Shown in pieces: positions 46,359 to 53,305 of a stretch of DNA of 64,000 bases (position 1 is its first letter; each line of letters starts with the position of its first letter). Made by a program: the position numbers and the translations under genes. The stretch spans positions 780,881 to 844,880 of the forward strand of contig NZ_FOOQ01000002.1 in NCBI RefSeq assembly GCF_900113245.1, given 5' to 3'. The notes beneath the pieces are model-generated. The model ran no database searches. It saw only the letters and a program-made list of their open reading frames with translations, and was not told where the DNA came from. This DNA comes from Halopelagius inordinatus. GTDB taxonomy: Archaea > Halobacteriota > Halobacteria > Halobacteriales > Haloferacaceae.

Positions 46359-47264
46359 ATGAGCGAAACCCAATCACAGACGGACGCGGTAGAGACGGTG
46401 CTCGATCACGCACAGACAGACACGTCGCCGGAGGACGCCGGTATCGCCGAGGTGTCGCGGGCGGTGTTGCAGGACATAGACGACATCAACGACGGCGACC
46501 TCTCCGTGGAGGTGGTCGGACGCGCGATCGGCGAGGCGTTGGGGCGCGAAATCGGCGCGCGCCTCGGGAGCGAACTCGGCGAGTGGATCGGACTGCGGAC
46601 GCGAGACGCGATACGGGGCGGCGACAGCGACGACGCAGGGTCGTTCACGGAGATGCTCCGGTCGTGGGTGAGCGCCATCGTCGAGTGGCTTCAAACGGCC
46701 GTGGGAGGAGCGATTCCCGGCGTCGGCGAGAGCGCCCGAGAGGCGATTCCCGACGCGGGAGAGGAGGCGGAAGACGTAATCCCCGTTCTCGGCGGGGAGG
46801 CGGAGTCCGACGGCGCCGACGACGAGAGCGGCGAGGACAGTCGCGACTCCGACGAGTCGGCGACCGACCCCGCCGACGTCGACCCCGACGCCGAGTCCGT
46901 GCTCGTCGAATCCGACGAATCCGACGACTCCGACGACTCCGAGACGGACCAGTCCGAAGAGAGCAACGACGGCGACGACGCGTCGGGCGACGACGGAACC
47001 GCCGACGAGACGGCGAGCACCGAGTCCGAGGAGAAAGCGGGCGGCGAAGAGCGACCCGAAGAGTCGGACACCGACGCATCCGACGCAGACGAGTCAGAGA
47101 CATCCGACTCCGACGCGGCCGAAGCGAACGGAGACGGGTCCGACGGAGACGCGACCAAAGAGGGGATGAGCAAGCAACTGGACGAGATGTCGAAAGAGGA
47201 CCTCCAGGGACTCGCACAGGACCTCGTCGACGAACTCAAACAGCGACAAGAAGAGACGGCCTGA
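46359..47264 (+). CDS. Acidic accessory protein convergent with the gvp operon, unassigned
   Basis: 301 residues, not recognised as a standard Gvp. Residues 1-50 are acidic. Residues 51-90 form a glycine-zipper-like amphipathic block (V-G-R-A-I-G-E-A-L-G-R-E-I-G-A-R-L-G). A second amphipathic region (about 95-125) follows with W-V-S-A-I-V-E-W-L-Q. From about 130 to 268 it is almost all Asp, Glu, Ser and Thr. The end is a helix S-K-E-D-L-Q-G-L-A-Q-D-L-V-D-E-L-K. Part of the acidic tract (46814-46918) is a near-identical copy of gvpJ. It is convergent with gvpM, 6 bp between stops. The position and shared segment suggest a gas-vesicle accessory, which is inference. Confidence 0.72.
   Translation: MSETQSQTDAVETVLDHAQTDTSPEDAGIAEVSRAVLQDIDDINDGDLSVEVVGRAIGEALGREIGARLGSELGEWIGLRTRDAIRGGDSDDAGSFTEMLRSWVSAIVEWLQTAVGGAIPGVGESAREAIPDAGEEAEDVIPVLGGEAESDGADDESGEDSRDSDESATDPADVDPDAESVLVESDESDDSDDSETDQSEESNDGDDASGDDGTADETASTESEEKAGGEERPEESDTDASDADESETSDSDAAEANGDGSDGDATKEGMSKQLDEMSKEDLQGLAQDLVDELKQRQEETA
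46814..46918 (+). repeat. 105-bp inverted repeat, copy 1 (in the acidic accessory gene)
   Basis: Direct base-by-base comparison shows 102 of 105 bases identical to the reverse complement of 48780-48884 in gvpJ. It codes residues about 152-187, with E-S-G-E-D-x-R-D-S-D-E-S-A-x-D-P-A-D-V-D-P. The first base is the third codon position in both genes, so the copies are in the same phase. Confidence 0.93.
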
Positions 47265-47270
47265 CGCCGA

Positions 47271-47561
47271 CTACCGTTCGTTCGGCTTCGGTTTCTTCTC
47301 CGACGTGGAGACGCGGTGAGATTTGAGCGGGTGTCTCGACTCGTCCTCTCGGTTCAACTCGCGTTGAATCTCGTCCCACTCTTCGAACATGCCGTACTCC
47401 CGCATCGTCGCCATCCCCGCCAAGGCGGCCCGGAGTTTCAGCCCGACGAGCGGGATATCCGCGACGGTGATGAGCACGTCCGCCTCGACGACGGCGCCTT
47501 TGTCGAGGAGCATGTCCACCAGATCGACGATGGCGTGTTGGTCGCCCTTGCTCGGCTTCAC
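47271..47561 (-). CDS. gvpM: Gas vesicle protein GvpM
   Basis: 96 residues from the GTG at 47561. It is a GvpA/J/M-family protein: A-I-V-D-L-V-D-M-L-L-D-K-G-A-V-V-E-A-D-V-L-I-T-V-A-D-I-P-L-V-G-L-K is the core amphipathic domain. The C-terminal R-H-P-L-K-S-H-R-V and K-K-P-K-P tail is basic. GvpM is a minor protein thought to act early in vesicle nucleation with GvpF/J/L. The GTG overlaps the gvpL stop as GTGA. Last gene of the leftward gvpFGHIJKLM operon, 6 bp from the convergent acidic gene. Confidence 0.92.
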   Translation of the reverse strand: MKPSKGDQHAIVDLVDMLLDKGAVVEADVLITVADIPLVGLKLRAALAGMATMREYGMFEEWDEIQRELNREDESRHPLKSHRVSTSEKKPKPNER

Positions 47562-48397
47562 GGCGACGCTCCCTCCAGGTCGTCGAGTTCCGGAGCGAAC
47601 GTGTACGGCGGCCACGGACCGCTGAACCGCACCTCGACGCCGTCCTCGGCGGCGATGTCGTCCAGTATCGCCCCGACGTCGTCCTCGCGGTCCAACGGGG
47701 CCAAAATCGCGAACCGGACCGAAACGGTCGAATCGTCGTCGTCGGACTCCGCGCCGACGAGAGAGGCGCTCCGGTTCTCTCCCAACCGGCGGATTCGGTC
47801 CGCGTACCGGGCCAGTCGCTCGGCGATGTCTTCGGCCTCGGTCTCGCGGTGGTCGCGGACGAGGTCGTCTAACCGCTGTTCGTACTGCTTTCCGACGAGG
47901 AATCCCGTCCCTTCGCCGGACTCCTCTTTTCGCGTCCGGAGTTCCCCGAGGCGGTCGTCCGTCTCCGCGAGGCGGTCGGCCAACGCGTCGTAGTCGCGGC
48001 GCACCTCGATGCGGTACTCTCTGAGTCCGGCGAGTTCGTCGAGGGCGTCGCGGAGTTCCGCGTCGGACTCGCGGAGCCAGTTTCGGACGACGCCGTCGTC
48101 GCCGGTCAACACCGTGTCGAAGCGGACCGGAAGCGGCGTCCCGAAGGCGTCCGCGGCGGCGTCTATCACCCGCTGGTGAGCCAACAGCCAGCGTTTCAGC
48201 GTCGTCGGGTCGTCGCTGTCGTACAGCGAGTCACATCGGTGAACGACCGCGCCGAGAGCTCCGTCGGTCACGACGTGGACGGGTTCGTCTTCGATGCCCT
48301 CGACGTCGAACTCGGCGTCGTCGTCCACGCGGACGACGCAGTAGAGGTAGCGTCCGTCCTCGAACTCGGTGTCGGATGCGGGGGCGGCGTCACTCAT
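47558..48397 (-). CDS. gvpL: Gas vesicle protein GvpL (GvpF/L family)
   Basis: 279 residues. The GvpF/L family start R-Y-L-Y-C-V-V-R and [10 protein letters not shown] is present, then [18 protein letters not shown], a long charged coiled-coil region (about 125-195) and the closing G-P-W-P-P-Y-T-F. GvpL is an assembly factor that interacts with many other Gvps. It overlaps gvpK by 8 bases and gvpM by 4. The length is typical. Confidence 0.93.
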
Positions 48398-48719
48398 CGC
48401 GTTCGACCTCCGGTGCGGGCTCTACCCAGTTCGTATCTTCGACCTGTCGGATGGCGTCTTCGACCAGTCCGTCCAAGTCGGCTCTGAGCTCTTCGACCGG
48501 TTCCTCGATTCCCTCCTGTTCTTTGAGCCCCTCGATTTCGGCTTCGATCGCGGCGAGTTGTTGGCCGAGTCGCTCTATCTCCTCGTCCGTGAGGTGGCCG
48601 GACTCCATGCGTCGGACCGCCTCGCGTTCGAGCGCCTCCACGAGCAGTTCGACCACGGTGACGACTAACGCCACGAGCCCGGTTCCGGCGCTCTCCTCGT
48701 CTATCTCGATGGTGGTCAT
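48390..48719 (-). CDS. gvpK: Gas vesicle protein GvpK
   Basis: 109 residues. [21 protein letters not shown] is the conserved hydrophobic helix, and [18 protein letters not shown] is the GvpK core. The rest is acidic. GvpK is an accessory protein of vesicle assembly. The start overlaps the gvpJ stop by 4 bases (ATGA) and the end overlaps gvpL by 8. Confidence 0.93.
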
Positions 48720-49363
48720 CTGTCGTCTCGGTCTCCGTCGTCTCGGCTCGTCCGTTCTGCGGCCTGTTCGCCGTCCTCGTCGTCGGATTCGACGAGCACG
48801 GACTCGGCGTCGGGGTCGACGTCGGCGGGGTCGGCAGCCGACTCGTCGGAGTCGCGACCGTCCTCGCCGCTCTCGTCGTCGGCGGAGTCGTCCGACGCGG
48901 CGGGCGTCTCCTTCGTCGCCGGGGTCTGACCGCTCGCGGGCGTCTGAGCGGTCACGGGAGATTTCTCGGTCAGAAACTCCGCTTCGTCCCAGTCGTCTTC
49001 CCCGTCTCCCCCGTCTTCCTCGTCTTCGGCCTCGTCTCTCTGCGTTCCTCTGGCCTCCGCGGCGTCCAGTTCCGCCTCCGACGACTCGGTCACCGTCACG
49101 GGCGCCTCGGCCTCCGAGATGCCCTCGCGGCGTCCGCCCTTGGCGGCGGCCTCGACGCGGTCCATGTCGGTCCCCTCGGGGAACTCAAGTCCGTACTCGG
49201 CGGCCGTCTCGAAGGAGGCGATGGCCGCGCGGACTTTCACGCCGAGCAGTTCGGTGTCGCCGATGGAGACGACGATGTCGGCGTTGACGACGACGCCTTT
49301 GTCCAAGAGCATCTCGACCATCTCCGCGAGGTCGGTCTTCTGGCGGGAGGGTTGCTCAACCAT
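48716..49363 (-). CDS. gvpJ: Gas vesicle protein GvpJ with a long acidic tail
   Basis: 215 residues from the ATG at 49363 (a GTG at 49372 is possible). Residues about 8-65 are the GvpA-like core: [24 protein letters not shown]. Haloarchaeal GvpJ is usually near 110 residues. Here about 100 more follow: an E/D-rich part, a T-P-A[12 protein letters not shown] run, then an acidic segment that is the second copy of the 105-bp inverted repeat, and a charged end. GvpJ is a minor shell or nucleation protein. It overlaps gvpI by 8 bases and gvpK by 4. Confidence 0.9.
48780..48884 (-). repeat. 105-bp inverted repeat, copy 2 (in gvpJ)
   Basis: This is the reverse-complement partner of 46814-46918 with three mismatches. 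It codes residues about 160-195 of GvpJ. The two copies enclose the rest of the acidic gene, gvpM, gvpL, gvpK and the end of gvpJ (46919-48779). Confidence 0.93.
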
Positions 49364-50372
49364 CGGACTCACCCGTCTCCGAGTTTCCGGTCTCTTGGTC
49401 GAACCGAGAGCCGTAGATGCGCTTTCTGTTCGGAGCCGTCGAGTAGCGCGTCTCCCGCGGAATCGTCGAGTAGTGGGTCGCGTGCCCGATGTCCCCGCGG
49501 TCGTTCTGGATGGTCCTGACCGCGGTGGGGTTCCGCGACGAGGTGCCCTTGCTCCGATTGCTGGTGCGCTGTTGGTTCTTCTCGTACACCTTCTTCAGCT
49601 TCTCGTGGGCCTCCAACATCCCCGCGCGGAACTCGTCTACGGCGTCCATCGCCTTCGACTGAATTCCCATCTGGACCGCCCGCTGGTCGTACTCGTCGAA
49701 GCCGATTTCGTCGTCGCCGCCGACGAGTCCGCCGTCGGAGTCGCCGGCGTCGGACCCGCCGAGGAGTCCGTCGTCTTCGGCGTCGTCCGCGTCGCCGGTG
49801 AGAGCGTCCGTCGCACTTTCGACGAATCCGTCGTCTTCGTCCCCGTCGTCCTCGGCGATGAGGCCTTCCAGTTCCGCGATTACGTCGTCTTCCGCGTCGT
49901 TTGCCTCCGCGTCCTCCGAGTCGTCGAGGAGTCCAGAGCCGAGGACACCGTCGCTCTCGCCGTCGCCTTCGTCCCCGAGGATGCCGGAGTCGTCCGACTC
50001 CCCGCCGAAATCGAGGTCCTGTGACTCCTTCCAGAGTCGGCGCAGGTCCGTGGCACCCAGCATCTCGCGGAGTTCGACTGCGCCGAGGAGTTGCCGGTAA
50101 TCGACCGCGTCCCCGAGTTCGCCGTCGCGAACGGCGTCCGGAACCTCGCCGGCCTCGATGGCCTTCAGGAGTTCCCCGCCGTCGACGGCGTCGGGGAGTT
50201 CGCTCACGTCGACGGCGTCGACGACGTCCTCCACTTCGTCGGCGGTGTGAATCAGTTGCCTGAGAGTCCGGATGGCGTCTTCGAGACTCCCCTCCTCGAC
50301 CGAGTCTTCGAGGTCAGCCATCTCCTCTCGGGTCCGGGTCAGCAGTTCGTCGATGTCGACGTCGTCAGTCAT
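49356..50372 (-). CDS. gvpI: Gas vesicle protein GvpI with a long N-terminal repeat extension
   Basis: 338 residues. The last 110 or so are GvpI-like: a helix E-A-H-E-K-L-K-K-V-Y-E-K-N, then basic R-N-P-T-A-V-R-T and R-Y-S-T-A-P-N-R. The first 120 are a separate domain: helices to residue 50, then seven tandem nine-residue repeats (53-115) such as AVDGGELLK and AVELREMLG. An Asp/Gly-rich spacer (about 120-225) joins them. Known GvpI proteins are short and basic. The start ATG overlaps gvpH by 8 bases, and the end overlaps gvpJ by 8. It is placed in the normal gvpI slot between H and J. Confidence 0.8.
   Translation of the reverse strand: MTDDVDIDELLTRTREEMADLEDSVEEGSLEDAIRTLRQLIHTADEVEDVVDAVDVSELPDAVDGGELLKAIEAGEVPDAVRDGELGDAVDYRQLLGAVELREMLGATDLRRLWKESQDLDFGGESDDSGILGDEGDGESDGVLGSGLLDDSEDAEANDAEDDVIAELEGLIAEDDGDEDDGFVESATDALTGDADDAEDDGLLGGSDAGDSDGGLVGGDDEIGFDEYDQRAVQMGIQSKAMDAVDEFRAGMLEAHEKLKKVYEKNQQRTSNRSKGTSSRNPTAVRTIQNDRGDIGHATHYSTIPRETRYSTAPNRKRIYGSRFDQETGNSETGESDG
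50028..50216 (-). repeat. Seven tandem nine-residue repeats in GvpI
   Basis: Residues 53-115 read as seven gap-free units of nine with pattern A-[VIT]-x-x-x-[EQR]-[LVM]-x-x: AVDVSELPD, AVDGGELLK, AIEAGEVPD, AVRDGELGD, AVDYRQLLG, AVELREMLG and ATDLRRLWK. The DNA is diverged between units, so the repeat is old at protein level. Confidence 0.88.
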
Positions 50373-51764: not shown

Positions 51765-52010
51765 GTGAATGGTCGCGCGGAACCACTGCCGTCAGCGGCG
51801 GCTATCCGCACACCAGTCTCTGAGGGGTGCGAGCGGGATAAGCGATGGTGTATATCAAACTCGATGAATGAAATATGGACGAATACGGGTTCGACTCCGG
51901 CAGTCGTTCAGGAAATAAAAACAATCACGGCACATTCCCTGTTCATCTTCACATCTCGGCCTCAAGCCTCATTACGGTGGGCGCTCGAAGATGATTTCAG
52001 GTCTATCACA
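51765..52010. promoter_or_regulatory. Divergent gvpF / gvpA control region
   Basis: 246 bp, AT-richer than the coding DNA. For gvpA, GAAATAAAAAC at 51912-51922 is the best TATA-like block, about 90 bases before the ATG, giving a leader of roughly 65 bases. For gvpF, TTTGATATAC read on the minus strand (51850-51859) is similarly about 90 bases from its ATG. The two blocks are about 60 bp apart, so factors bound between them could control both. No strong Shine-Dalgarno sequence precedes gvpA. Confidence 0.45.
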
Positions 52011-52277
52011 ATGGCACAACGAACACCGAACGCGTCAAGTCTGGCGGAAGTCCTCGACCGGGTCCTCGACAAAGGCGTCGTCATCGACGTCTGGGCTCGA
52101 ATCTCCGTCGTCGGCATCGAACTGCTCACCGTCGAGGCGCGCGTCGTCGTCGCGTCCGTCGACACCTTCCTCCACTACGCGGAGGAGATAGCGAAGATAG
52201 AGCAGGCGAGCGCATCCGGCGACATCGACGAACTCGAGGAGATAGAAGTCGAAACCGAGCCGGCGCAGACACAGTAA
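52011..52277 (+). CDS. gvpA: Major gas vesicle structural protein GvpA
   Basis: 88 residues. [24 protein letters not shown] followed by [13 protein letters not shown] is the highly conserved shell subunit that forms the ribbed wall. [10 protein letters not shown] is the C-terminal helix. The tail after it is longer and more acidic ([13 protein letters not shown]) than in the 76-residue Halobacterium protein. First gene of gvpA-N-O; gvpN starts 8 bp after its stop. The normal next gene gvpC is missing. Confidence 0.97.
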
Positions 52278-52285
52278 CCGACTGA

Positions 52286-53305
52286 ATGACCGACGGCTCC
52301 GACCACAAACGGAAGGTGCGCGGCCTCAGCGTACGGTCCGACGGCAAAGAGACGAAACGTCGCAGTCGCGAAAAGAAGGACCTCGACAAACAGCGGTCCG
52401 AAGTCGACGGCGACGACGGAAACGACGGACCCCAATCGGCCCAGAAGGTCGCCCGACGGTTCGAGCCGTTCGTCGAAACCGACGAGACCGAAGCGCTCGT
52501 AGAGCGCATCCGAAACTGGTGGGGTGCCGAGCAACCGGTCCATCTCATCGGTCCGACCGGGTGCGGCAAGACGACGATGGCCGTCCAGTCGGCCGTCGCC
52601 CGCGGACGGCCGATCGTCTGGCTCGAAGGCGACGACGCCGTGGACACGGCCGCACTCGTCGGCGAACACGCCGGTAAAGAGCAGTACGCAGAGCGCGACC
52701 AGTACGTCAGAGACGTCGTCAAAAAGAAGTCCATCGTTCGGGACCGCTGGGTCGACAACCCCCTGTCGGTCGCGGCCCGAGAGGGAGCGACCCTCATCTA
52801 CAACGAGTTCTCGCGGTCGAAACCCGCAGCGAACAACGTCCTCCTCTCGGCGTTCGAAGAGGGGATACTCGAACGCTCCACCGGGCGCGGGGCTGACCGA
52901 ACCATCGACGTCCACCCCGATTTCAGGGCGATACTCACCTCGAACTCCGTCGAGTACGCGGGCGTCCACCGGCCGCAAGACGCCTTACTCGACCGACTCG
53001 TCGGAATCCACCTCGGCTTCTACGACCGAGAGACCGAGGTCGAAATCGTCGACTCCAGAGTCGACGACTTGGACCGAGAGAACATCGAGAAGATAGTGAC
53101 TATCGTGCGCGGCCTCCGCGAGGAGATGGACGTGACCGTCGGAACGCGGGCGGCGGTGATGGCGGCGCGCGGACTGACGGCGTTCCCGCCGAGAGACGAC
53201 CTCATCGTCGATATCTGCACGGACGTCCTCGCCTCGAAGGTGTCCTCTCGCGAGGAAGTCGAGGAGCTGAGGGACCAGATTGATTCCATAGTGGGAGGAA
53301 TGTGA
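52286..53305 (+). CDS. gvpN: Gas vesicle ATPase GvpN
   Basis: 339 residues. About 55 charged residues lead into a MoxR-like AAA+ domain with Walker A GPTGCGKTT (89-97), Walker B region E-G-A-T-L-I-Y-N-E-F-S-R-S-K-P, and sensor 1 A-I-L-T-S-N. GvpN is needed for full vesicle growth in halophiles. It lies 8 bp after gvpA and 4 bp before gvpO. Confidence 0.94.
   Translation: MTDGSDHKRKVRGLSVRSDGKETKRRSREKKDLDKQRSEVDGDDGNDGPQSAQKVARRFEPFVETDETEALVERIRNWWGAEQPVHLIGPTGCGKTTMAVQSAVARGRPIVWLEGDDAVDTAALVGEHAGKEQYAERDQYVRDVVKKKSIVRDRWVDNPLSVAAREGATLIYNEFSRSKPAANNVLLSAFEEGILERSTGRGADRTIDVHPDFRAILTSNSVEYAGVHRPQDALLDRLVGIHLGFYDRETEVEIVDSRVDDLDRENIEKIVTIVRGLREEMDVTVGTRAAVMAARGLTAFPPRDDLIVDICTDVLASKVSSREEVEELRDQIDSIVGGM

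Follow-up and report, generated by a model that had tools for sequence, protein, structure and literature searches.

A near-identical inverted repeat in gvpJ and a convergent acidic gene of a haloarchaeal gas-vesicle cluster, probably the product of recent ectopic copying

The window, the whole 64-kb stretch of DNA that was analysed, belongs to a 3.5-Mb genome assembled as 14 contigs and carries a gas-vesicle gene cluster. The genes gvpF-G-H-I-J-K-L-M run on the minus strand from 51764 down to 47271, and gvpA-N-O lie on the plus strand. In both this cluster (51765–53305) and that of G063, the same-genus genome used for comparison, gvpN follows gvpA directly, and neither gvpC nor gvpDE turned up in the gvpF–gvpA or the gvpA–gvpN interval. 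A gene for an acidic protein of 301 amino acids (the acidic gene, 46359–47264, plus strand) is convergent with gvpM. The gas-vesicle gene names given in the first-pass annotation were right, with GvpJ, GvpL and GvpM scoring above their NCBIfam cut-offs and GvpK above its Pfam cut-off. The features of the region are as follows.

46359–47264, plus strand: acidic gene, 301 amino acids (open reading frame; G063 ortholog at 61% identity)
46814–46918, plus strand: left arm of the inverted repeat, acidic linker residues 153–186 (self-BLAST and repeat finder)
46919–48779, no strand: spacer between the arms, 1861 bp, which recombination of the arms would flip (inversion simulated in silico)
47271–47561, minus strand: gvpM, GTG start at 47561 (NF046091, 120.7 bits, cut-off 109)
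47558–48397, minus strand: gvpL (NF045778, 328.5 bits, cut-off 200)
48390–48719, minus strand: gvpK, whose start overlaps the gvpJ stop in ATGA (PF05121, 91.4 bits, cut-off 25)
48716–49372, minus strand: gvpJ, 218 amino acids, conserved core plus cluster-specific acidic tail (NF046090, 142.9 bits, cut-off 125)
48780–48884, minus strand: right arm of the inverted repeat, gvpJ tail residues 164–197 (self-BLAST and repeat finder)

The inverted repeat reported by the first-pass annotation was recovered by self-BLAST and by a repeat finder. Its arms agree at 102 of 105 positions (97.1%), lie 1861 bp apart and gave a self-BLAST E of about 8e-45. Extending them to 46808–46918 and 48780–48890 lowered the identity to 95.5% over 111 bp, again in inverted orientation. 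The genome holds exactly two full copies; further matches in it were rejected as short composition matches. This was also the sole near-identical repeat in the window, the next best being a 75% match between the halves of an ABC-transporter ATPase. As had been claimed, the arms share a reading frame, with 32 identical residues in 34 codons. The three mismatches, at arm positions 26, 49 and 50, comprise two non-synonymous changes and one silent change, and the uninterrupted matches around them are 25, 22 and 55 bp long. D, E and S make up 62% of the repeat peptide, and both tails that carry it are rich in these residues and sited where homologs fail to align.

The acidic protein has no Pfam or NCBIfam match. 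It consists of an N-terminal glycine-zipper-like segment, an acidic low-complexity linker and a short conserved C-terminal motif (MS..DLQ..A.D). Its N-terminal part was matched in 64 of 392 genomes of the order, mostly weakly. Judged by sequence, the acidic gene is a member of a loose haloarchaeal family, whose examined members have in common the glycine-zipper-like segment, an acidic linker that varies in length and the C-terminal MS..DLQ..A.D. The repeat falls within this variable linker, a stretch that probably tolerates change easily. Two scans of genome contigs, with the acidic protein alone and with it aligned to its G063 ortholog, gave no confirmed relative. A paralog lies in the same genome at C1:950749. 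The relatives adjoin other acidic proteins, and no gvp genes were detected in their loci. A locus of three to four acidic proteins recurs around them in haloarchaea (L055, L056, L057, L062 and L063, together with the paralog's own locus, L066 2794–4717). It encodes a VLHLDLDGLFLDLLGLEVNL-type-segment protein, a glycine-zipper protein, the acidic-gene relative and a protein ending in ...RHSTMPKRN, the last of which weakly resembles the end of GvpI (pairwise BLASTP E 0.002).

Haloarchaeal genes use few codons, so similar peptides resemble each other in their DNA as well, and for this reason codon identity in the arms was compared with an expectation computed from the codon usage of 14 neighbouring genes, with the repeat masked. 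Identical codons were found at 31 of the 32 shared residues vs 18.2 expected (P about 3e-8). An excess of this size indicates that the identity of the arms stems from recent copying or conversion of DNA. The first-pass annotation had drawn the same reading from identity at silent sites, and it is supported both by the codon excess and by the absence of the repeat from G063 and 390 other genomes. In gvpJ, gvpK, gvpL and the acidic gene, the source genome and G063 have the same third codon base at only 75–78% of the residues that they share, compared with 31 of 32 in the arms, which places the copy after the split from G063. As a rough guide only, its age would be about a tenth of that of the split. 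The direction of copying was addressed by a donor test, in which neither arm clearly outscored its codon-shuffled copies when aligned with either of the G063 tails; the arm flanks do not reveal the donor gene either.

The distribution of the repeat among relatives was then considered. G063 is collinear with the source genome over acidic gene-M-L-K-J-I-H-G-F, in the same order and orientation, and its GvpJ is 78% identical, but the inverted repeat is absent from its acidic gene and gvpJ. The same-genus comparison rests on this one genome, and a second orientation in close strains could thus be missed. At family level, J-K-L-M is collinear on one strand in all 19 distinct gvp loci (L020–L038; L039 and L041–L043 are longer extracts of places already counted), and none of the 19 contains a comparable inverted repeat between genes. 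A search for a 53-bp core of the repeat that tolerated three mismatches found it in none of 390 other genomes of the class. The repeat peptide has no real match elsewhere among 170 family genomes. Weak peptide matches in genus g9 and in G051 (E about 2e-3) lie opposite to or overlap unrelated genes, such as that for an NADH-dehydrogenase-like subunit, and were therefore dismissed as composition matches. An exact 24-bp arm pattern had no match in viral contigs, and plasmid records compared with the gvp clusters gave 60–90% matches only, none spanning most of the query. Tandem direct repeats were observed in acidic stretches near gvpI in other genomes (L021 3639–3822; L039 3860–3982). Several of the family gvp loci have such tandem repeats, which measure 66–111 bp at 90–92% identity (one of 111 bp is 90% identical, another of 66 bp 92%); this suggests that acidic gvp DNA of this kind is prone to rearrangement.

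We consider it likely that the repeat is a lineage-specific, recent ectopic copy between low-complexity acidic tails, made by template switch or gene conversion, and that it serves no dedicated switch; within this account, we infer how the copy arose and that it has no function. Some 105 bp coding for part of an acidic, probably disordered tail would have been copied between gvpJ and the convergent acidic gene, ending up inverted, once the lineage had diverged from the closest relative sequenced. Ectopic gene conversion is a likely route, as is template switching in the course of repair, and the many short GAC/GAG/TCC codon runs common to both tails may have primed the event. The copy was presumably accepted because both sites tolerate changes in length and sequence, and the inverted repeat itself would be a by-product of the copying. 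Gene conversion in polyploid Haloferax volcanii likewise copies sequence non-reciprocally and is very efficient there (PMC8223754). The conversion described there involves alleles carried by the several genome copies and tracts no shorter than 600 bp, whereas here the event would have been short and ectopic.

Selection on the peptide would be another way to keep the arms alike. The shared 34-residue peptide could be functional, for example as a docking motif for GvpJ and the acidic protein, and be maintained by selection or by recurrent gene conversion. Nearly the same sequence does stand in frame in both proteins, and it includes a hydrophobic VLV between acidic residues, which is unusual for these tails. 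However, selection on protein leaves the 31 of 32 identical codons unexplained, and the peptide is missing from the G063 orthologs of both genes and, barring weak unrelated matches, from the other family genomes searched. We therefore regard a functional peptide as improbable.

The first-pass annotation had further proposed that recombination between the arms works as a switch that inverts gvpK-L-M. The predicted in-frame exchange of tails proved correct, as both fusions stayed open when the inversion was carried out in silico. The resulting acidic protein has 207 amino acids and ends in the GvpJ tail, while the resulting GvpJ has 312 amino acids, carries the tail of the acidic gene and is encoded on the strand opposite to gvpK-L-M. 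These three genes remain intact on the plus strand, where they come immediately after the acidic gene and the ATGA overlap of stop and start is preserved. The arms are thus placed so that inversion yields two coherent states. The expected uncoupling of gvpK-L-M from its present promoter was half right. With the acidic gene immediately 5' of them, the three genes would be re-coupled to its promoter and not left promoterless, so the promoter is exchanged and not lost.

As a working switch, flipping of 46919–48779 would put gvpK-L-M under the acidic gene's promoter, swap the GvpJ and acidic tails and alter gas-vesicle formation in a subpopulation. Such a tail swap could matter, since Halobacterium salinarum makes no gas vesicles once GvpJ has lost just its five C-terminal residues (PMC8716928); with the GvpJ end essential there, the exchange could be either harmful or switch-like. 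In Thermococcus, moreover, an integrase is active on identical segments down to 104 bp in length (reviewed in PMC8371274). No positive evidence for a switch was found, however. The genome has eight sites with tyrosine recombinase domains (PF00589), none within the 64-kb window and the nearest, at C2:881464, about 52 kb away (window base 46814 corresponds to C2:827694), so that no recombinase is adjacent; serine resolvases (PF00239) were not found in the whole genome. The source assembly contains one orientation and exactly two copies, although an assembly built from short reads would conceal an orientation present in a minority of molecules. The search of related genomes for both orientations found one orientation in G063 and the family loci and no relative with the repeat or an inverted gene order. 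The arms, moreover, are already diverging, and two of their three differences are protein-changing. These observations make a working switch very unlikely. Rare RadA-dependent homologous inversion of gvpK-L-M over the 105-bp arms would be possible in principle. Its use, without a dedicated recombinase, as a homology-driven switch inside the gvp operon, exchanging the GvpJ tail and bringing gvpK-L-M under a second promoter, is likewise very unlikely.

Known inversion systems resemble the locus in part. In the tail-fibre region of haloviruses phiCh1 and phiH1, inverted repeats at two related genes allow inversion to exchange gene ends (PMC6210493), but these viruses carry an XerD-type recombinase gene between the repeats, whereas none lies near the gvp repeat and no inverted form was seen. 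Unstable gas-vesicle phenotypes caused by DNA rearrangement are known from Vac variation in Halobacterium (PMC4390858), which differs in arising from ISH insertion sequences and not from a short inverted repeat. An earlier paper cited in PMC4390858 (Ng, Kothakota and DasSarma, 1991) likewise ties inverted repeats to gas-vesicle DNA, in the inversion isomers of the Halobacterium gas-vesicle plasmid pNRC100. In the present genome, by contrast, a 1.9-kb segment inside the gvp operon is concerned. The pNRC100 repeats span tens of kilobases, and a large part of the plasmid is inverted by them.

An artefact of assembly or sequencing is the least credible reading: repeats are risk points in assemblies, here one of 14 contigs, but the copies differ at three sites, each occupies an open frame of its own between unique flanks, and the arrangement matches the collinear relative G063.

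Herein, our findings point to recent ectopic copying between two acidic tails. If the copy event is all there is, the locus offers a clear, young case of sequence moving between unrelated genes via acidic low-complexity tails, which are abundant in haloarchaeal proteins. If the segment does flip, it would constitute a gas-vesicle switch with no need for a dedicated recombinase. The repeat, with its 105-bp arms and longest perfect run of 55 bp, is a natural substrate for measuring short-repeat inversion in a haloarchaeon.
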